Shown in pieces: positions 5,342 through 62,753 of a DNA stretch of 64,000 nucleotides. Location: contig CM046297.1 in NCBI GenBank assembly GCA_025267735.1, forward strand, positions 24,578,011-24,642,010, in the 5' to 3' direction. The DNA comes from Mactra quadrangularis. Lineage: Eukaryota; Mollusca; Bivalvia; Venerida; Mactridae. The position numbers and the translations under genes are program-made. Numbering within the stretch: the first letter of the stretch is position 1; each line of letters begins with the position of its first letter. A model generated the notes under the pieces. That model had not been told where the DNA came from and ran no database searches. It worked only from the letters and a program-made list of their open reading frames with translations.

Positions 5342-5525
5342 AACACTGCAAAACGATTCACAAGTTTATTTTGACATCTTTTTTTCTCAGTACAGCATAG
5401 GGGTAAGGTGCATTCGGAACATCCTCAGCCATTCGCTACACGAATAACCTCGGACGTATTTAGGCGCCATTTTTAAACTATGTAAACAAATACACGATCG
5501 TTTAGGCGATGACTGAAGTTCCGTT

Positions 5526-5669
5526 TGTCACGGCACTTACCTGTTCACATTATGGGTAGAAGGATATGTAAGCGGCCGGATAGCTCAGTCGGGAGAGCAC
5601 TCGCCCTGTAAGCGAGAGGTCCTGGGTTCGAGTCCCGGTCAGGCTGCATGTTTTTCTTACCCTGTGACA
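5526..5669 (+). repeat. 5' LTR of the TRIM (144 bp)
   Basis: Starts TGTCACGGCACTTACCTG and ends TTACCCTGTGACA, with 6-bp inverted termini TGTCAC/GTGACA. It contains a full-length tRNA-like module at 5574-5646. No TATA box or poly(A) hexamer is evident, which fits Pol III rather than Pol II transcription; that is inference. Confidence 0.93.
5574..5646 (+). tRNA. tRNA-Thr(UGU)-like module inside the 5' LTR
   Basis: It folds as a 73-nt cloverleaf. The acceptor arms GGCCGGA/TCAGGCT pair at 6 of 7 positions. The D arm is GCTC...GAGC, the anticodon arm CTCGC-CCTGTAA-GCGAG has anticodon TGT, the variable loop is AGGTC, and the T arm is CTGGG-TTCGAGT-CCCGG. The A box is 5581-5592 and a perfect B box, GGTTCGAGTCC, is 5625-5635. 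Position 33 is C instead of the near-invariant T, so it is probably a tRNA-derived promoter and not a translating tRNA. It lies wholly within a retrotransposon LTR. Confidence 0.75.
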
Positions 5670-5671
5670 TT

Positions 5672-5689
5672 TGGCGCCCAACGTGGGAC
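5672..5689 (+). promoter_or_regulatory. primer-binding site for tRNA-Lys
   Basis: TGGCGCCCAACGTGGGAC begins two bases after the LTR end. It is complementary to the 3' end of animal tRNA-Lys(CUU), whose expected site is TGGCGCCCAACGTGGGGC, at 17 of 18 positions. It defines this repeat pair as an LTR retrotransposon primed by tRNA-Lys. Confidence 0.9.
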
Positions 5690-5794
5690 GTGACAATTAC
5701 TTGGTCAGTTGAGAAACGCTTGTAAAAAAATAATGCTCCTTAAACGGCCTGGAATTCTGAAATTCGAGACGAATTTCCGGTTCGTGGGGGAGTA

Positions 5795-5931
5795 TGTCAT
5801 GGCACTTACCTTTCACATTATGGGTAGAAGGATATGTAAGCGGCCGGATAGCTCAGTCGGGAGAGCACTCGCCCTGTAAGCGAGAGGTCCTGGGTTCGAG
5901 TCCCGGTCGATGTTTTTCTTACCCTGTGACA
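5795..5931 (+). repeat. 3' LTR of the TRIM (137 bp)
   Basis: Same as the 5' LTR apart from one substitution, a 1-nt deletion near 5812 and a net loss of 6 nt in the 3' half of the tRNA-like acceptor stem (about 5909). A box 5849-5860 and B box 5893-5903 are intact, so the promoter elements survive although the cloverleaf is broken. Confidence 0.93.
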
Positions 5932-5960
5932 CGTTTTTAATCCGTAAATTTAAAATTACA

Positions 5961-16159: not shown

Positions 16160-16865
16160 GCCATCTCAATCTGGTTAAAACCGGATCTCAATCTATCTGC
16201 TCATATACTCACTTATTTTAGATCTTGCTACTTCATATGACTGGTCAGCCACCCGGCTAGCTCAGTTGGTAGCATGCAAGTCTACTGATCGAGGGGTTGT
16301 GGGTTCAATTCCCGAGCTGGGTATATTTTCGTGGAGCTTGGCCATGAAATTATTTCTACGGCCATTCTCCTTCCTAACAATGATTTTCATTATGTAGGGC
16401 AGTTGTCAGTCACTGAAGAAAGTATGTGCTTAGTAGTTGGTTAACAGCTAAATCCAGAGATTTAGCCTTTTCAGGAGGAGTGAGTAGGTTGACTGACCAC
16501 TGTTATATGACCTATTCAATGAGTTGCTACGGTCTTAAACCCAACAAAAAACAAAAACAAATATCACGGGTCATGATCATCTAATCTTTATTATTATAAT
16601 ATCATTTCGTTCAATAACTTGTTTACATCATCTATGTCATACAATTTGGAAAGAGCTGCCCAATCACTGTGAATCACACCTCTGTCTTAAAACAGAAATT
16701 ATGAAATCAAAATGCTATTAATTGTGTTTCATCCAGATGAAAGCCACACATTGATTGGTCAACCCAGAGGTCATCTTGACATGACCCCCTGAGCGATAAC
16801 AAAAGATCCTGTATGACAAGGATCTATAGGATACATGTTTACAGAAATTCGAGCCATCTACATTT
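16160..16865 (+). mobile_element. repeat family E, copy 1, split by a SINE
   Basis: The left piece 16160-16247 (AAACCGGATCT...) and right piece 16560-16865 (TTGTTTACATCATCTATGTC ... GATTGGTCAACCCAGAGGTC) match one family seen also at 37110-37490, 50055-50410 and 52628-52935. SINE A1 separates them. No termini are recognised, so the class is unknown. Confidence 0.7.
16248..16559 (+). mobile_element. SINE type A, copy 1 (tRNA-Lys-derived)
   Basis: The head CCCGGCTAGCTCAGTTGGTA ... GGTTGTGGGTTCAATTCCCG resembles tRNA-Lys with A and B boxes. The body ends ACAAAAACAAA after a shortened form of the tail. It is inserted in repeat family E. Confidence 0.85.
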
Positions 16866-17585: not shown

Positions 17586-18420
17586 CATGTGCAAATTCTC
17601 TCATTCCTGAGATTTCGAAACATGTGTGCAAATTCTCTAATTCCTGAGGTTTTGAAACCTGGGTGCAAATTCTCTTATTCCTGAGGTTTTGAAACATGGG
17701 TGCAAATTCTCTTATTCCTGAGGTTTTGAAACATGGGTGCAAATTCTCTTATTCCTGAGGTTTTGAAACATGGGTGCAACTTCTCTTATTCCTGAGGTTT
17801 CAAAACATGGGTGCAAATTCTCTTATTCCTGAGGTTTTTGAAACATGGGTGCAAATTCTCTTATTCCTGAGGTTTCGAAACATGGGTGCAAATTCTCTTA
17901 TTCCTGAGGTTTTCGAAACATGGGTGCAAATTATCTTATTTCTGATGTTTCGAAACATGGGTGCAAATTCTCTTATTCCTGAGGTTTTTGAAACATGGGT
18001 GCAAATTCTCTTATTCCTGAGGTTTTTGAAACATGGGTGCAAATTCTCTTATTCCTGAGGTTTCAAAACATGGGTGCAAATTCTCTTATTCCTGAGGTTT
18101 TTGAAACATGGGTGCAAATTCTCTTATTCCTGAGGTTTTGAAACATGGGTGCAAATTCTCTTATTCCTGAGGTTTTGAAACATGGGTGCAAATTCTCTTA
18201 TTCCTGAGGTTTTTGAAACATGGGTGCAAATTCTCTTATTCCTGAGGTTTTGAAACATGGGTGCAACTTCTCTTATTCCTGAGGTTTTGAAACATGGGTG
18301 CAACTTCTCTTATTCCTGAGGTTTTTGAAACATGGGTGCAAATTCTCTTATTCCTGAGGTTTTGAAACATGGGTGCAACTTCTCTTATTCCTGAGGTTTT
18401 GAAACATGGGTGCAACATCT
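17586..18420. repeat. about 37-bp minisatellite, roughly 22 copies
   Basis: The unit GCAAATTCTCTTATTCCTGA-GGTTTTGAAACATGGGT varies from 36 to 38 bp through T-run length. Both strands show spurious frames of about 80-97 codons with repeats such as HVSKTSGIREFAPMF. These are by-products of the array. Confidence 0.95.
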
Positions 18421-20070
18421 CTATTTTAAGTTTTTTTAATTTAGAAACCCGTTGGGATTCATAAAAAATTGTATTTTTAACATGAGACATGAAATTTTTC
18501 TTTTCTTTATAATAAGATAGCCCCTTCAACTCCAGTGACCCGCTGTTACATATTTTAATGGGAAAGGGGCCCCACTATAAAAAATTTCATTTTCAGGCAA
18601 CCATCCTTTAGCAAAACTCACTAAATGCTGTATAAAACACTATTTTCAACTCCTGTGACAGCCATTTTGAATGGAGGGGTTCCAGAAAGGTAAAAGAATG
18701 GGATTGACTAGTAAAGGGTTAAAGATGCTGTCTTTATACTCTGTACTCCAAAAGTTTCTTCACAGTACAATTAATTGAATTCTAAATTAACTAAAGTGTA
18801 CTTTGATGAACTATTGTATCATGGTTTATTGTATTCATTATTTATGCAGTGGAGAGATATTTTATTGGTATTTTACAGTTGTTTGGTGCAGCAAAAATGA
18901 TCTATCAGCACCCAAAACTCATTCTCGTACCCAGAGGCGATCAAGATTCTTGCTTACCTCTGGGTACAAGAATGCAAAACTATGGTCTATGTATCTCAAT
19001 AAACCAATATCAAGTTTAAGATATTTTTGTTATTTTATATTTATATATGCTGTTTAAAAAAGCAAAATTAAAAAATATTTAACTGTAAAATGCTTTTACG
19101 CATTTTTAGACTTTAAGCGATTTTGCCAAAAGGCTTAAGTTATACCACTAATCGAAAACCAGTTTAACATAGCGGAATGTTACATGTGTCTCTGATTTAC
19201 TACACAGTCAATTTCTAGGCGATTAAAGTAGTTCTGTCATATGACTCAATCGTCAATGTTTTTATCAGTGACAGGTATTAAGCATGTGGAAGGGGCGGAG
19301 TCAAATCTTGTTTATACATTAAGAAATATACATCGTGATCAGAGTCTGTATTGTATCATATTTATATCATATTTAACTACTCTAATGAACCTACAGAATT
19401 TATATACAAAATGTACTGGGGTAAACTGTACTTTAAGATTTTGTATGGCAAGAAGAGGAAAATAAAATCCTTATAATATTTGCCAGTAATACAGGGTAGA
19501 ATAAAAACTTCGCCAGCATATTTTGCCCTTCTTAATTCGTACTTGAATCTAATGTGTTAGGAGTAAACATTAGTATGGATTTGTTAGGTTTAAATGTGCA
19601 CGAAAGTCTTTCAGTATTTCAATACTTTGATTAACTTCATTAAGTACCATGTAATTATGAATGTGTGAAGGAACTTTTGGAGGGCAGTATATACGACTGT
19701 TAAAAAATACTTTTCTGTCATCATTATGATTATCTCAACATCAACTCCATCAATATATCTAGCTTCTTTTGTGAATTCTAACTTAATAACATAGGGGTTG
19801 CTGACGCTAAGAATGAATAAAATCCAGTTAACGCAAGTCTCAATTGATCTAAAACGGAATTTTTTACCATATTATCTCTCTGCTATCTTCATTGATTACC
19901 CTGTACAAGATTCCTTAATTGGTAATTACAATCTCTAATTGGTAGAAAAACTGGATACAAAATAAATTTTTTCATTGATCGTTATATTTGAAAAAAATAC
20001 GTTTTTTTTTGTTTTTTCGAGGAATGAACGATTCCAATGCTTTCATGAGAATGAGTTTGTGCAAAGTGTA
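18421..20070. other. no gene recognised
   Basis: Holds one short foldback at 18923-18975 (TCTCGTACCCAGAGG / CCTCTGGGTACAAGA). Otherwise AT-rich sequence. Confidence 0.4.
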
Positions 20071-25869: not shown

Positions 25870-26394
25870 CTATATACTGGTCAAAGAGAGGGTCAGAACA
25901 CACACTTCTGAATCACAAGTGTATAGGTTATTTGTGACCACCAAATGATGTACATGGGTTTTGCCAATGATTTTAGATTTTTTGCACCCTTATAATGTCA
26001 ACCTTGATAATATGGAGAAAAGGGAATGTTTGTAAAAATGAATCAGAATGACCAACACTCAACCAATGCTAATTGATTTCAAGCTATGTTTAAAAAGTAC
26101 CAGTAGAAAAAAATCTATTATACATTTTGTATTTTGCGTAGGTGTTGCTGTTGGTCATTCAATTCACACAATGATTACATTGTAACAGATATCAGTTTCT
26201 ACTGAAAAACTGTAATTACAGCCCTAATGAAAATGTTCGTAATGACCTAAGGTCTGTACTTCTGTACAGTTGATTCCAGCAAAAGCCCATAAAGTACAGA
26301 ATGCATTTGTTTTGTTGGGTTAAGTGGCACATCAAAACAAAAAGGTTATATCGTGCTGAAACGGTTAGATAACTCTGTTATTTATATTTTTCAG

Positions 26395-26499
26395 GTACTC
26401 TCTAAAGAGGAGTTACATACGTACGCTGCTTCAATATGTCATAATGGTGATCTCATTATAAGTTTACATTTATTGTTTGATGAATTCCCCGAACCAGAG
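26395..26499 (+). CDS. FAM126: hyccin, exon 2
   Basis: A 105-nt phase 0-0 exon between TTTTTCAG and GTAAGT. It encodes VLSKEELHTYAASICHNGDL then IISLHLLFDEFPEPE, matching the family segment with [26 protein letters not shown]. It forms the first helices of the hyccin fold that packs against TTC7. A type B SINE starts only 43 nt after the donor. Confidence 0.88.
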
Positions 26500-26542
26500 G
26501 TAAGTGTAACTTATACAATTGAAGCTCTCTTGAACATCACAG

Positions 26543-26795: not shown

Positions 26796-29180
26796 ACTTG
26801 AACAACACCCACTGGGAGGGACTAAAAGGTGTTGCTGTTCAGTGGATATTGCTCTAAAGAGGTTGAATTCAATAAAAATTACACCTTCGGGAAATATCAA
26901 ATATCTGTTGTTAAGCAGAGGATTTGTTCTGTAGAAGGCTGCTCTGCAGAGGTTATAGAGTATATGAAGCTTTGAATGAGGCTCATTGGACTTCAGGCTT
27001 GACTTTAAATCTTGTGACGTAGGTTCCATTTAATCAGCATCTCTGAATTGAGTGCATAAGAGCTGAAAGCTTCTGATTCAAGTTAATCCTTTAGTTGTTA
27101 GGTTACAGTTTTTGATGAGGGAGATGTGTGAAAATTAAATTATTTGTTCAAAGGCAACTTTCCGTAAGCAAAATTCACTTGATCCAGTTAAAAAGACTCA
27201 TTTCAAGTCCTATGGAGGTTATTTTTACCAGGCATTTTGGTTAAACACATAAAAATACACAGGGTGGACCATTTTAGGATTAAAATCACAGTAATATTTT
27301 TTTCAGTGATAAATGGTTATACTTTAAACTCGGCTACGCACCATGGCTCATGGCTTATTCTGAGAATCAGTAGAACCGTCTGTCACGCATGACTGTCATT
27401 GGTTGTGAAACTGAATGATTAATCTTTACTTTAGAAAATGTACTTTCATATATTTTTGTTTAATAAATTTCAATCATTTTCTATGTTTCTCAATCAGTCA
27501 AATCTTGCATCCCAAGTAACAATGTCTTTGATTGGTTCTTTTAAACAGTAAGCTCAATTCTGATTGGTCCAATTTGTAATTACCCATAAATCTCCTCTGT
27601 CCAGTAATTAATAAGACAAGGACTGAGGAGAAGAAGAATAATATTACTCTCCATAGACGTCCTTCAAACTTTATGAATATTTTCTCTAATTATAAAAAAT
27701 TGAAAATCGTAAAATTTAATTTCATGATGTAAGTCGATACGACATTCGGTCGTAACCACTGGAATCTTGAGTAATAATGCAAAACTTTGTCGTATGATTA
27801 TATAAATTGTAATATGAGGTAAATTAAAGTCAATTTTTGTACTCATCTCACATCAGTAACCATGTTTTATTATTTTAGAAGATGAGTTGTTTTAATTATG
27901 CTTCCATAGCAACCAGCGGTATCCAAGGACACCTGAATTAGTTTTAATGATTCTGCGTGCTTTGTTCGCTGTGATGTGTGCTGGAAATAATCTGCTTATG
28001 ATTATGAATTACTACGAACTGTCAACTGATACACGTACATGTATACATTGGCTTTTTTTATCACAACACGGCACATCACGCACACAAAATCTGATTAAAA
28101 AACAAGTACTTCCAAGGGATGTATAATGTATACTTTGTCTAATTAAACTTTTGCTTCATTATACTTAAGACTTAACCCTGAGCAGTTGTATATTGCGGGT
28201 TTAGCGAAAAACTGTCCTAACTCATTATAAGAAGAGAGTGAGTTACAACCTTTTTGCGCTAAACCCGCGATATTGAGTTAATTGCTTATTCTTGAATCAT
28301 GATTTTGTTATTATGTAGAGGGAGTTCCGTTTTTTATCTATCTGGTTGAATGACATTTGATGACATTTTATCTAGATCTACAAGTCATTAGGATTGAAAG
28401 AAGGTTAATTACTTTTTATAATCATGTTTCTTGCTTCAGCAAGATCCGTGACTCTAGGGTGAATATCTGTCGTCATGAGGCAACCTGTCGTTGTTGTCGT
28501 GTCAAAACCTTATTACTTCAATTCCTAAAAATTTGAAGGTAAAGTTACGAGGTTTGGACTAGACAACAACTCTATGTCATTTTAATGACCAAGGCAGTTC
28601 AAGCCTTATACTTTCTTGAGCACAAGCACAATTTGTAATGTAATATTATCAACTAGCCTGATTATGGTATATGAAATCAGTAATTTTCACTCTCCCAATG
28701 CAATTTTCACTCTACCTAGGTTTTAGGCTTGTTGGTTAAGATGATGAGTGCAAGGTTGGGATAGTTAACTTTAATGAGAAACGATAAGAGCTGTATATAT
28801 GTGAACAGTAATAAAATATTGGTGAAGCCACGTTAAATATAGAGTACAAATGCCTTTGTTAGATATGATTTGTAGCCACGCCTACATAGACCCTTATTAG
28901 ACTAGTGACTGTTGTTGTACTTAAAGTGTTTAAACAAAACTGTTTAATGTCATTTTCAGGGATGTGGAATTCCTAGTTTCTCCACAGGTTAGAGGTCAAA
29001 ATGCACTTGTCCATAAGTTTGATATTCAAAAGGACATATCGAAAAATTAATATTATTAATAATAATAACTAATTGGCAATATTATTCAGTGAAGTTCACA
29101 TACCTGGTATGTACGAGTCGGACATATTGTGCATTGGAATTCCACACCCCTGATTTGATTTTTATTTTCTTTCATTTCAG
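26796..29180. other. hyccin intron 2, remainder
   Basis: Contains the single-copy foldback at 28189-28273. No other recognised element or exon. Confidence 0.5.
28189..28273. repeat. single-copy foldback around TTGCGGGTTTAGCG
   Basis: TATTGCGGGTTTAGCG and CGCTAAACCCGCGATA are inverted. The pairing continues inward (CTAACTCA/TGAGTTA) giving arms of about 35 nt and a loop of about 15 nt. Confidence 0.7.
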
Positions 29181-29315
29181 ATCCTAGATCCAATCTGTAA
29201 TCAGCTGTTTGAATTTTATCGTTCAGATGAGAAGGAACTACAAAGATTTTCATTGGAATTAATACCTTGTTTAGTTTGGTTATATTTAGCTTTTGTCAGC
29301 AAGGGAGAGAAAGCT
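29181..29315 (+). CDS. FAM126: hyccin, exon 3
   Basis: A 135-nt phase 0-0 exon between TTTCAG (ending 29180) and GTATGT. It encodes [20 protein letters not shown], then QRFSLELIPCLVWLYLAFVS and KGEKA. This is the most conserved hyccin block (family: [20 protein letters not shown]...FTLQFLPELIWCYL) and secures the identification. It is the third helix pair of the all-helical domain. The following intron is 25,032 bp and filled with repeats. Confidence 0.95.
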
Positions 29316-29369
29316 GTATGTATATTTCTGTTTTTTGTTTATATGTGTAAAATGTGTAAAACTCATTTT

Positions 29370-29682
29370 TTTGTTGGGTTTATCACCATAGCAACACATT
29401 GTATAGGTCATATAATGGCGGTCATTCAACCTACTCACTGTTCCTGGGAAGGCTAAATCTCTGGATTTAGTTGTTAATCCACTACTAGGCGCATACTTTC
29501 ATCATTGACTGACAACTGCCCTACATGATTAAGAACCATGGATAGGAGGGAGAATGGTCATAGAAATAATTTCACTACCAAGGTTCACGAAAGTATCCCC
29601 CCTTCTTCCAGGAATCAAACCCTCGACCGCTTGATCAGTAGACTTGCCTGCTACCAACTGAGCTAGCAGAGGGGCTATGTAA
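29370..29682 (-). mobile_element. SINE type A, copy 2, in hyccin intron 3
   Basis: Reversed head (GCTACCAACTGAGCTAGC near 29652) and tail at 29370. The flanks TGTAAAACTCATTTTTT and TGTAAAAATCCTTTTTT are an imperfect 17-bp target duplication. Confidence 0.85.
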
Positions 29683-30421
29683 AAATCCTTTTTTCATTGT
29701 AGTGAAAATATTAATTCAAAATGACGTCACTTTAAAAGAGATTTAACATCATCTAAGCATTATTATATTATTATTATATACCACATTTGTATAGCGCTCT
29801 TTTCATATTGAATATATGTTCAAAAGCTCTTAAAGAAAAAACAGTGGTCAATATTGTTAAAGATTATGAGCTCAGAAAGCTCACTCAGTGAAAAAAATTG
29901 ACCTTTTTCCAAAGTCAACGAATATCCTGTTTTTTTTTCAACCTGTTAACCTTTGTCATTACTTTATTATTCTTATTTATCAATACTGAAAACTTATTTT
30001 ATCTTATCTTAAAATGTCATGTATTTGTAGTTATTAAAGTTACAAAAATTATTTTGGTTTGATAATGATAGGTAAACGCTTAAAACAAGCAATAACTTGA
30101 CATTTTTAACATTTGTGCATGATTGTTTTACCAATTTAGTTATTACAGTAAAATTCTCAAAAGTATCAAATTTTGATTAAAAAACTTTACTACTTAACAT
30201 TCGGTGAAGGTCATTACAGCTGTTATGATTGTTTATGTTTTATATTAAAGTTTCTTCTTCATAGGTTTCAACTTAAATATCAACTTTTCTAAAACTTTCA
30301 AAACTTTATAGAAATATTTGGAAGCAGTAAAGCAATGTTCTAATGATGACTGTTTTAGTGTAATTTTAAAATACAACTGTATAATATGATGATTTTTTGC
30401 ATAAAAACCTTCCCCATTTGT
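29683..30421. other. intron DNA between two SINEs
   Basis: AT-rich, with a short ATT microsatellite near 29758-29785. No other feature seen. Confidence 0.5.
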
Positions 30422-30748
30422 TTGTTTTTGTTTTTGTTGGGTTTAATGCAGTAGCATCATATTGTATAGGTGTAGAAGGCGGTCAGTCAACCTACTCACT
30501 GTTCCTGGAAAGGCTAAATTATATAAAATATCTCTGGATTTAACTGTTAACCAACCACTAAGTGCATACTTTCATTGATCAGTGACTGACAACTGCCCTA
30601 CATAATAAGAATCATTGGTAGGAGGGAGAATGACCGTAGAAATCATTTCATGACCAAGCTCCACGAAAGTATGCCCCGCCCGGGAGTTGAATCCGCAACC
30701 TCTCGATCAGTAGACTTGCATACTACCAATTGAGGTAGCAGGACGGCT
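30422..30748 (-). mobile_element. SINE type A, copy 3
   Basis: Exact 12-bp target duplication TTCCCCATTTGT at 30410-30421 and 30749-30760. The head GAGGTTGCGGATTCAACTCC is read on the minus strand. Confidence 0.92.
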
Positions 30749-37825: not shown

Positions 37826-40800
37826 CTTTTTATACGCCCGTTTTGAAAAAACGGTCGTATTATGTTATGCTGTTGTCCGTCTGTCCGTCTGTCCGTCTGT
37901 CCGTCTGTCCGTCTGTCTGTCTGTCCGTCTGTCCGTCTGTCCGTCTGTCCGTCCGTGGACAATTGCTTGTCCGGATGATAACTCAAGAAAGGATGAACCT
38001 AGGTTCCTCAAATTTTATGTGTTGATAGCCCTTGGGTGGAGGAGGTTCCCTATTGATTTTGAGACCCCAGGGTTAAAGGTCAAGGTCACTGGGACTTAAA
38101 ATAGGTAAAACTTGTCCGGACAATATCTGAACCACCAATGTACCTAAGTTCACCAAATTTAATGTAAGAGTAGCCCATGTGTCAAAGATGTTCCCTATCG
38201 GTTTTGGGGCCCCTGCGTCAAAGGTCAAGGTCACAGTGGCATCATATGGGAAAAAAACTTGTCCTGACAATAACTTAATAACCAATCTACCTAGGATCAC
38301 CAAATTTTATGTGAGAGAAGCCCATGTGTCAAGGATGTTCCCAATCGGTTTTGGGGCCCCTGGGTCAAAGGTCAAGGTCACAGGGACATCAAATTGAAAA
38401 ACCTTGTCCGGACCATAACTCAACAACGCCTGTACCTAGGTTCACCAAATTTTATGTAAGAGTAGCCCATGTGTCAAAGATGCGCCCTATAGGTTTATGG
38501 GGTCCCAGGTTCAAAGGTCAAGGTCACAGGGGCATTATATGGAAAAACTTTGTCCGGACAATAAATGAAACACCAATGTACCTAGGTTCACCAAATTTCA
38601 TGTGAGAGTAGCCCATGTGTCAAGGATATGCACTATTGATTTTGGGGCCCCTGGGTCAAAGGTCAAGGTCACAGTGGCATCAAATTGAAAAACATTGTCC
38701 GGGTAATAACTCACTAATGACTGTACCTAGGTTCACCAAATTTCATGTGAGAGTAGCCCATGTGTCAAGGATGTACCTTATCAGTTTTGGGAAAACAGGG
38801 TTAAGTTTAAATCTTAAACCAGAAGATATCAAATTACCAAGCTGTGACTTCAAATGTTCTATCAATATGTTTATAAAGTCAAAACGGCAAACAATGAAAC
38901 ACTTGTCCAGACAATAACTGAACCACCAATGTACCTAGGTTCTCCAAATTTTATGTGAGGGTAGCCCTTGGGTAAAGGTTATGCCCTATTGGTTTTGGGG
39001 TTCCTGGGTCAAAGGTCAAGGTCACAGAGGCATCATATTGAAAATCCTTGTTTGGACAATAACTCATCAACTACTGTACCTAGGTTCACAAAATTTTATG
39101 TGAAGGTAGCCCTTGTGTCAAGGATGTTCCCAATAGGTTTTTGGGACCCAGACCCAAAGGTCAAGGTCACAGAGGGATCATATGGAAAAACCTTGTCCAG
39201 ACAATAACTGAACAACCAATGTACCTAGGTTCACTAAATTTGGCGTGAAAGTAGCCCATGTGTCAAGGTTATGCCCTATTGGTTTTGGGGCACCTTGGTC
39301 AAAGGTCAAGGTCACAGGGGCATCATATTGAAAAACATTGTCTGGATAATTACTCAACAATGATTGTACCAAAGTTCACCAAATTTCATGTGAGATTAGC
39401 CCATGTGTCAAGGATGTACCTTATCAGTTTTGGGAAAACCAGAGTTAAGTTTAAATCTTAAACCAGAAGATATCAAATTACCAAGCTGTGACTTCAAATG
39501 TTCTATCAATATGTTTATAAAGTCAAAACGGCAAACAATGAAACACTTGTCCAGACAATAACTGAACCACCAATGTACCTTGGTTCTCCAAATTTTATGT
39601 GAGGGTAGCCCTTGGGTAAAGGTTATGCCCTATTGGTTTTGGGGCTCCTGGGTCAAAGGTCAAGGTCACAGGGGCATCATATTGAAAATCCTTGTTTGGG
39701 CAATAACTCATCAACTACTCTACCTAGATTCACAAAATTTTATGTGAGGGTAGCCCTTTTGTCAAGGATGTTCCCAATAGGTTTTTGGGCCCCAGACCCA
39801 AAGGTCAAGGTCACGGAGGCATCATATGGAAAAACCTTGTCCAGACAATAACTGAACAACCAATGTACCTAGGTTCACTAAATTTTATATGAAAGTAGCC
39901 CATGTTTCAAGGTTATGCCCTATTGGTTTTGGGGCGCCTTTGTCAAAGGTCAAGGTCACAGGGGCATCACATTGAAAAACATTGTCTGGGTAATTACTCA
40001 ACAATGACTGTACCTCAGTTCACCTAATTTCATGTGACAGTAGACCATTTGTCAAGGATGTGCCTTATCAGTTTTGGGGAAACAGGGTCAAGTATAAACC
40101 TTCAACCAGAAGATATCAAATTACCAAGCAGTGACTTCATATGTTCTATCAATATGTTTATAAAGTCAAAATGGCAAACAATGAAACTTTTGTCCAGGCA
40201 ATAACTGAACCACCAATTTACCTAGGTTCATTAAAGTCTATGTGAGGGTAGCCCTTGTGTCAAGGATATGCCCTTTTGGTTTTGGGGCTCCTGGGTCAAA
40301 GGTCAAGGTCACAGAGGCATCATATTGAAAAACCTTGTTTGGACAATAACTCAACAAGGACTGTACCTAGGTTCATAAAATTTTATGTGAATGTAGCCCT
40401 TGTGTTAAGGATGTTCCCAATAGGTTTTGGGGCCCCAGACCCAAAGGTCAAGGTCACAGAGGCATCATATGGAAAAACCTTGTCCAGACAATAACTGAAC
40501 AACCAATGTACCTAGGTTCACTAAATTTTTTTAGGAGAGTAGCCCATGTGTCATGGTTATGTCCTATTGGTTTTAGGGCCCCTGGGTCAAAGGTCAAGGT
40601 CACAGGGGCATCATATTGAAAAACATTGTATGTGTAGTAAATCAACAATGACTGCACTTAAGTTCACCAAATTTCATGTAAGTGTAGCCCATGTGTCAAG
40701 GATGTTCCCTATTGATTTTGGGGCCCCTGGGTCAAGTTTAAACCATCATCCAGAAGATATCAAATTACCAAGCAGAGACTTCAAATGTTCAATCAATATG

Positions 40801-48375: not shown

Positions 48376-48690
48376 CCGCCCAGCTGGCTCAGTGGGTAGC
48401 ATGCAAGTCTACTGATTGAGGGGTTGTGAGTTTGATTCCTGGGCGGGGCATATACTTTTGTGGAGCTTGGTCATTAAATAATTTCTACGGCCATTCTCCC
48501 TCCTACCAATGATTCTTAATTATGTAGGACAGTTGTCAGTCATTGACAAATTATGTGCTTAGTAGTTGCTTAAAAGCTAAATCCAGAGACTTAGCATTTC
48601 CAGGGAGTAGGTTGACTGACTGCTGTTATATGACCTATACAATGTGTTGATGCGGCGTTAAACCCAACAAAAACAAAACAAAAAACAAAC
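48376..48690 (+). mobile_element. SINE type A, copy 4
   Basis: CCGCCCAGCTGGCTCAGTGG head, GGGTTGTGAGTTTGATTCCT B box, and tail GCGGCGTTAAACCCAACAA followed by an A-rich end. Confidence 0.88.
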
Positions 48691-52998: not shown

Positions 52999-53308
52999 GT
53001 AGCCACCCGGCTAGCTCAGTTGATAGCACACAGGTCTACTGATCGAGGAGTCATGGGTTTAATTCCCAGGCGGGGGCATTCTTTTGTGGAGCTTGGTCAT
53101 GAAATTATTTCTAGCACAATTCTCCCTCCTACCAATGATTTGTAATTATGTAGGGCAGTTGTCAGTCACTGACGAAAGTATATGCTTAGTAGTTGGTTAA
53201 CAGCTAAATCCAGAGATTTATCCTTTCCAGGAACAGCAAGTAGGTTGACTGACCGCTGTTATATAACGAATACAATGTGTTGCTACGGCGTTAAACCCAA
53301 CAAAAAAT
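52999..53308 (+). mobile_element. SINE type A, copy 5
   Basis: A 9-bp target duplication ACTCAAATT is at 52990-52998 and 53309-53317. Head CCCGGCTAGCTCAGTTGATA and tail TGCTACGGCGTTAAACCCA. Confidence 0.92.
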
Positions 53309-54347: not shown

Positions 54348-54392
54348 AAATGTGGTGGAGTTGAAGCTTTCCTGTTGTCAGTTTACAATCTA
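54348..54392 (+). CDS. FAM126: hyccin, exon 4
   Basis: A 45-nt phase 0-0 exon between TTTTCAG (ending 54347) and GTAAGT. It encodes KCGGVEAFLLSVYNL, matching the family segment SGCIEALLLGVYNLE. It joins in frame to exon 3 across the 25-kb intron. The next expected exon (family: EIVDKQGHTKVLSF) was not found up to 64000, so the rest of the gene probably lies to the right. Confidence 0.9.
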
Positions 54393-62399: not shown

Positions 62400-62439
62400 C
62401 TAATGAATGGTGCATTAACAATGTTAACCTCCCAATTGA

Positions 62440-62753
62440 GCAGCCCGGCTAGCTCAGTTGGTAGCACGCAAGTCTACTGATTAAGGGATAGTGGGTTCGA
62501 TTCCTGGGCGGGGCATACTTGCATGGAGCTTGGTCATGAAACGGCCTTCTCCATCCTACCAATGATTTTTATTATGTAGTTCAGATGTCAACTGACCACT
62601 GACGAAAGTATGCTCTTAGTAGTTGGTTAACAGCTAAATCCAGAGATTTAGCCTTCCCAGGAGCAGTGTGTAGGTTGACTGACCACCGTTATATGACCTA
62701 TACAATGTTTTGCTACAACTTTAAACCCAACCAAAAAAAACCGCAAAAAAGAT
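62440..62753 (+). mobile_element. SINE type A, copy 6
   Basis: An 11-bp target duplication CTCCCAATTGA is at 62429-62439 and 62754-62764. The head is GCAGCCCGGCTAGCTCAGTT with B box GGGTTCGATTCCTGG. It lies 32 bp right of the hAT-type MITE. Confidence 0.93.

Follow-up and report, generated by a model that had tools for sequence, protein, structure and literature searches.

A 406-bp long terminal repeat (LTR) element, located at positions 5526–5931 on the plus strand of a stretch of bivalve DNA, is very probably a multicopy terminal-repeat retrotransposon in miniature (TRIM) of the Helenus type that moves as an LTR element. The stretch, here called the window, comprises 64,000 nucleotides of the Mactra quadrangularis genome (GenBank assembly GCA_025267735.1, contig CM046297.1, positions 24,578,011 to 24,642,010 of the forward strand). 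Helenus, also named TRIMp3, designates TRIMs that carry tRNA-derived sequence in their LTRs and were described from fungi, animals, and a plant (Kojima 2024, PMC10886601). A first reading of the window from its letters alone, hereafter the original prediction, had proposed this architecture for the element and had stated that no described metazoan family of such a form was known. Helenus is such a family, so the statement has to be withdrawn, and the novelty of the design is rejected, the same architecture having been published.

Anatomy of the 406-bp element

All the parts of a complete element with TGTCA/TGACA LTRs, a tRNA-Lys primer-binding site, and a 4-bp duplication were located where they had been predicted. 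The 5' LTR (5526–5669, plus strand, 144 bp, TGTCA...TGACA) was delimited by blastn, and its borders recur in other copies in the genome; the 3' LTR (5795–5931, plus strand, 137 bp, with the same ends) was likewise delimited by blastn. Between the two LTRs (94.4% identical, blastn), LTR position 6 is substituted, and there are also a 1-bp indel and a deletion next to which one base has changed. Between them lies an internal part of 125 bp (5670–5794, plus strand; sequence and blastn), which is overlapped by no stop-to-stop frame of at least 90 amino acids. A CGTT target site duplication flanks the element (left copy at 5522–5525, right copy at 5932–5935); as context for this match, four bases agree at the element's spacing at 453 of 63,580 window positions.

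The primer-binding site (5672–5689, plus strand) begins 2 bases past the end of the 5' LTR and agrees at 17 of 18 bases with the published letters of the tRNA-Lys1,2 site (PMC1084362, PMC8775094), the runner-up on either strand of the window scoring 13/18. The predicted purine tract is present in a short form, GGGGGAG at 5786–5792 (plus strand, by eye), and it is followed by TA, so that the purine run ends 2 bases ahead of the 3' LTR. We also considered the tRNA of the LTR as the primer of its own element, and this candidate was dismissed: the best local match of the primer-site complement in the LTR is 5 bases long and is equaled by 498 of 500 shuffles.

A dispersed family in the host genome

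The original prediction had suggested counting two-LTR copies with duplications in the host genome, and this count revealed a dispersed family, not a single-copy sequence. The genome searched comprises 979 Mb in 447 contigs and contains at least 51 whole-element matches, a lower bound, as 40 of the 2067 first-look candidates were scored. For the family analysis we retrieved 39 loci, a single simple two-LTR copy being present at 35 of them and tandem arrangements at the other four (L009, L033, L034, and L037). Exact 4-bp duplications were found in 30 of the 35 simple copies, compared to 19 of 1190 when the left flank of one copy was set against the right flank of another, a control in which copies with common flanks are included. 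Together with the number of matches, these duplications uphold the proposal of a multicopy, proteinless TRIM with a tRNA-derived module in its LTR. Some copies have common flanks through segmental duplication; at the level of distinct sites, 24 of 28 show the duplication in at least one member. In 6 of the 35 copies, at five distinct sites (two of the six share one site), the LTR pair is identical over 144 bp, and some insertions are therefore recent.

A 17-mer of the LTR end occurs exactly 451 times in the host genome. Twenty of these places were sampled; because they were picked via the LTR end, copies consisting of the module only are outside the reach of this sample. No internal part was present in the retrieved stretch for 12 of the 20, and 7 of these 12 have both borders, as in solo LTRs, 3 of the 7 with a 4-bp duplication. 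One of these three (L125) and the two-LTR copy L031 lie between identical six-base flanks and probably go back to one ancestral insertion.

Two further observations were made on the family. A diverged branch (L112, L123, and L129) has LTRs ~79% identical to the window LTR and a right flank common to all three members. In one of the arrays (L034, C7:33994700-33997300), three units leap from internal position ~80 to LTR position 44, just ahead of the tRNA-like module. A fossil RNA start was considered as the origin of this junction and discarded; both places have 8 of 9 bases in common (by eye), which suggests that short-homology recombination may have produced it.

A tRNA-like module in the LTRs

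The tRNA-like module of the 5' LTR spans positions 5574–5646 (plus strand) and was recognized by the Rfam tRNA model, by ARAGORN, and by stem-loop reading. Generally known consensus patterns were used to call the A and B boxes, and the module fully matches both, with the A box TAGCTCAGTCGG at 5581–5592 and the B box GGTTCGAGTCC at 5625–5635 (plus strand). A run of five T (T5), resembling a terminator of RNA polymerase III (Pol III), follows at 5651–5655 on the same strand. In the 3' LTR, the module (5847–5908, plus strand; Rfam tRNA model and box search) is without its 3' acceptor strand, which the deletion in this LTR takes away; its A box (starting at 5849) and B box (starting at 5893) are again full consensus matches on the plus strand, and the terminator-like T5 run is at 5913–5917 (plus strand). 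With the Rfam tRNA model (cut-off 29 bits), the 5' LTR reached 58.2 bits and the 3' LTR 45.5, and ARAGORN, run with the bacterial code setting, called a tRNA-Thr(TGT) at 5574–5647, in the 5' LTR only. Thus, of the foldable tRNA with boxes that had been predicted in the LTR, the boxes are present in both LTRs of the window copy and the full tRNA outline is confined to the 5' LTR. In nearly all LTRs examined other than the 3' LTR of the window, the 3' acceptor strand of the module is retained.

The anticodon loop of the 5' module in the window reads CCUGUAA, with C at the place of U33, and its acceptor stem has one G-A mismatch. Among 12 human tRNAs compared, the closest was Lys-TTT (53/73), followed by Thr-TGT and Lys-CTT (49 each). 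The fold energy of the module was no better than chance with respect to shuffles (z -0.54 for 5572–5648) and was discarded as evidence for a tRNA module; for whole LTRs, z was -2.71 (5' LTR) and -1.85 (3' LTR). A phage collection yielded 128 matching records; of the 20 listed, 18 have tRNA genes at the matching place. The element patterns gave no match in a collection of viral contigs, and the pattern gave none in a collection of genome contigs.

The 39 loci provided 88 complete LTRs for a count of signals. An A box is present in 74 of the 88 and a B box in 78, and AATAAA or ATTAAA occurs in none. Shortly past the B box, 77 of the 88 have a run of at least four T: 72 have T5 at the same offset and five have T4–T5 at or beside it, the remaining LTRs being five with no such run and six without a B box. 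A B box could be located in 82 LTRs, and 67 of these have the loop CCTGTAA. Of the loops that could be read by pattern, 70 of 71 have C at the U33 place and one has T, with 11 loops unreadable by pattern. Because nearly all readable loops (70/71) have U33 replaced, the module probably acts as a promoter and not as a decoding tRNA-Thr. Of the 91 tRNA calls that ARAGORN made on these loci, 85 are Thr(TGT) and six are Tyr, Ile, or unassigned.

Conservation was evaluated by comparing 104 distinct LTR sequences with the window LTR, 16 CpG sites and four commonly differing sites being excluded. Per non-CpG site and copy, the boxes showed 0.029 differences, the other module sites 0.043, and LTR sites beyond the module 0.032; the gap between boxes and module was reached by 230 of 5000 site shuffles, a procedure that ignores the relatedness of the copies. 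At CpG sites, the same 104 LTRs show 0.097 differences per site and copy compared to 0.03–0.04 elsewhere, as expected if TRIM copies are methylated.

A Ty3/gypsy element sharing the primer site

A 17-base pattern of the primer site occurs 122 times in the host genome. Thirty of these places were examined; 26 belong to the TRIM family (L086 and L087 lying in one array) and four do not (L085, L092, L095, and L098). L092 and L095, which agree by 96% across 2.7 kb, represent one family. More specifically, L092 has gag, zinc knuckle, reverse transcriptase, RNase H, and integrase domains in Ty3/gypsy order, between LTRs of ~1.19 kb that are identical across 1189 aligned bases, and a GTAT duplication flanks it (flank letters by eye). 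This element also contains, without any change, the first 20 bases of the internal part of the TRIM. In animal hosts of Helenus, Gypsy elements with similar primer sites were proposed as partners (PMC10886601); L092 fits this type and may be regarded as a candidate mobilizer only. The places L085 and L098 have a Lys-type primer site as well, are not TRIM copies, and resemble each other in part near the site.

Comparison with known elements

Six animal phyla were reported to contain Helenus elements, pteriomorph bivalves having 51 families, and element sizes range from 311 to 1263 bp (PMC10886601). Those of animals have 4-bp duplications, and Lys is among the primers in bivalves; solo LTRs, as well as tandem arrays of a zebrafish family, were also described, and the tRNA is viewed there as a promoter, unlikely to be a working tRNA (PMC10886601). 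The element of the window (406 bp, with LTRs of 144 and 137 bp) agrees with this description in each of the features compared: tRNA-derived LTR sequence with A and B boxes (74/88 and 78/88), a primer site close behind the 5' LTR that corresponds to a tRNA 3' end (17/18, Lys1,2), a polypurine tract ahead of the 3' LTR (by eye, the short GGGGGAG and then TA), 4-bp duplications (CGTT in the window, 30/35 in the family, 19/1190 in the control), a dispersed multicopy family with solo LTRs, and a host Gypsy element with a similar primer site (L092). Set beside the published description, and not beside catalogued consensus sequences, it shows no difference in kind, and it is a further example of the described Helenus kind, not a new kind. 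A literature search by titles under both names, Helenus and TRIMp3, found no second paper on these elements; the word Helenus also occurs once in a Papilio genome paper (PMC10058580).

The comparison with the plant element Cassandra, drawn in the original prediction, is also made in the literature (PMC10886601). Cassandra follows the same logic, a promoter derived from a Pol III gene inside the LTR of an element without proteins, and likewise forms tandem arrays, but it is found in plants, uses 5S rRNA instead of tRNA, and has the primer-binding site TGGTATCAGAGC (PMC7215508). The terminal repeat of its RNA is reported to be 18 bp (PMC10886601), whereas ~85–95 nt would be predicted here. Ajax (Kojima 2024, PMC10886601) is likewise an animal TRIM with LTR sequence derived from a Pol III gene and differs by its partial 5S rRNA, its nemertean hosts, and its 5-bp duplications. 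The animal TRIM biv-TRIM (Satovic et al. 2019, PMC6934838) shares tandem arrays and solo terminal repeats with our element; it has other terminal repeats, no canonical primer-binding site was found in it, and Pol III is unmentioned in the available text. We rejected biv-TRIM as the closest family, its primer letters and internal segment being absent from the window element (by eye).

Other features of the window

A dispersed repeat of ~305 bp, resembling a short interspersed element (SINE) with a tRNA-like head, occurs in six copies that are 77–87% alike, at 16247–16561, 48376–48685, 53000–53307, and 62434–62741 and, on the minus strand, at 29367–29677 and 30417–30748. Its head is exemplified at 62450 by TAGCTCAGTTGG...GGTTCGATTCC. 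This repeat was ruled out as the source of the LTR module, with which it has no stretch of more than 14 bases in common.

An exon of hyccin (FAM126) at 29178–29291 (plus strand) was identified by significant matches to Pfam and to a solved structure. Two places on the plus strand, 26389–26502 and 54354–54392, match a human hyccin sequence only weakly (E 2.7 and 2.1), and the TRIM lies upstream of the exon and of both these hyccin-like places. Tandem arrays are located at 37966–40735 (145-bp units, many diverged copies), 461–1286 (177-bp units, 98% matches), and 17589–18422 (37-bp units, ~22 copies).

Discussion

With regard to transcription, we lean slightly toward a route in which the genomic RNA of the element would arise by Pol III read-through, a proposal built on the arrangement of the signals in the sequence. 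Pol III would start in the 5' LTR, ~10–20 bases ahead of its A box, and most transcripts would end at the T5 run past the module (5651–5655), yielding a tRNA-like RNA of ~85 nt. A minority would read through as far as the second T5 run, that in the 3' LTR (5913–5917), and end there, giving an RNA of ~350 nt. In this RNA the module, present at either end, would form the repeated region (R), together with ~14 bases of unique 5' sequence (U5) and ~40 bases of unique 3' sequence (U3). A tRNA-Lys would then prime minus-strand synthesis, and reverse transcriptase and integrase would be supplied in trans by a Ty3/gypsy element.

Several observations weigh against the account given here of how the element is transcribed and moves. 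T5 is the usual termination signal of animal Pol III, and the run in the 5' LTR would be expected to halt the enzyme ahead of the primer site; genomic RNA therefore needs read-through or another polymerase. The boxes are not clearly more conserved than other sites of the LTR, which is at best weak support for selection on them. The 4-bp duplication is missing in 5 of the 35 two-LTR copies (L010, L016, L020, L028, and L044). As for the autonomous element sought by the original prediction, the primer site of the TRIM was found in the Ty3/gypsy element L092 and the TRIM LTR was not: the TRIM LTR has no blastn match at E 1e-3 in the 3-kb L092 locus, the primer site of L092 lies 6 bases past the LTR compared to 2 in the TRIM (by eye), and the overlap between both elements is limited to the primer-site stretch.

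A possible but doubtful alternative is that the transposition RNA is made from the LTR by RNA polymerase II (Pol II), the module being a passenger or serving another step, and Pol III yielding a short side RNA only. The T5 run a few bases past the module in the 5' LTR, with its counterparts in 77 of 88 LTRs, speaks for this explanation, as do the boxes, whose conservation is only slightly above that of the remaining module and no higher than that of the surrounding LTR sequence. It is countered by the complete lack of AATAAA/ATTAAA in the 88 LTRs, by the retention of A and B boxes in 74 and 78 of them, and by the published statement that transcription of Cassandra, the counterpart in plants, starts from a Pol III promoter of its own (PMC10886601). 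Judged from these signals, the missing poly(A) signal and the retained boxes would favor Pol III, and the early stop would count against an efficient production of genomic RNA.

We consider a functional tRNA-Thr(UGU) gene, carried along or captured by the element, a very unlikely identity for the module. ARAGORN does call Thr(TGT) in the 5' LTR of the window and in 85 of 91 cases among the 39 loci, a T run stands behind the module as in a tRNA gene, and seven bivalve Helenus families are able to encode tRNA-Thr (PMC10886601). However, U33, a paired acceptor stem, and complete copies in both LTRs, as would characterize such a gene, are not found in the window copy: C occupies the U33 place there and in 70 of 71 readable loops, the acceptor stem has its G-A mismatch, the 3' LTR module is without an acceptor strand, and the nearest of the 12 human tRNAs is Lys-TTT (53/73) rather than Thr-TGT (49). 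There is next to no chance that a tRNA-derived SINE came by accident to lie between or inside repeats, with a fortuitous LTR outline. The sixfold occurrence of the tRNA-headed ~305-bp repeat in the window would make this thinkable, but no stretch above 14 bases links it to the module, the LTR borders, internal part, and 4-bp duplications are shared by other copies in the genome, and the duplications at the LTR borders in 30 of 35 copies refute it.

Within the Pol III read-through route, we raise a more speculative idea, that the LTR could be a two-product switch. Because a complete Pol III gene and its stop lie upstream of the primer site, every LTR, solo LTRs included, might emit the short tRNA-like RNA, and a transposable RNA would be formed only via read-through. 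If this were true, the copy rate would be set by leaky Pol III termination, and the partner element could be influenced by the short RNA, as a decoy or as a source of tRNA fragments.

In conclusion, a terminator-like run ahead of the primer site poses a clear question on how genomic RNA is produced in these elements, and we found no statement of this problem in the available text of Kojima 2024 (PMC10886601), nor did a literature search on it list a paper whose title addresses it. Such elements can also inflate counts of tRNA-Thr genes, given that 85 of the 91 tRNA calls in the 39 loci were Thr(TGT). Finally, the duplications, the identical LTR pairs, and the arrays of M. quadrangularis provide an independent confirmation, from one genome, that Helenus-type TRIMs have moved recently.
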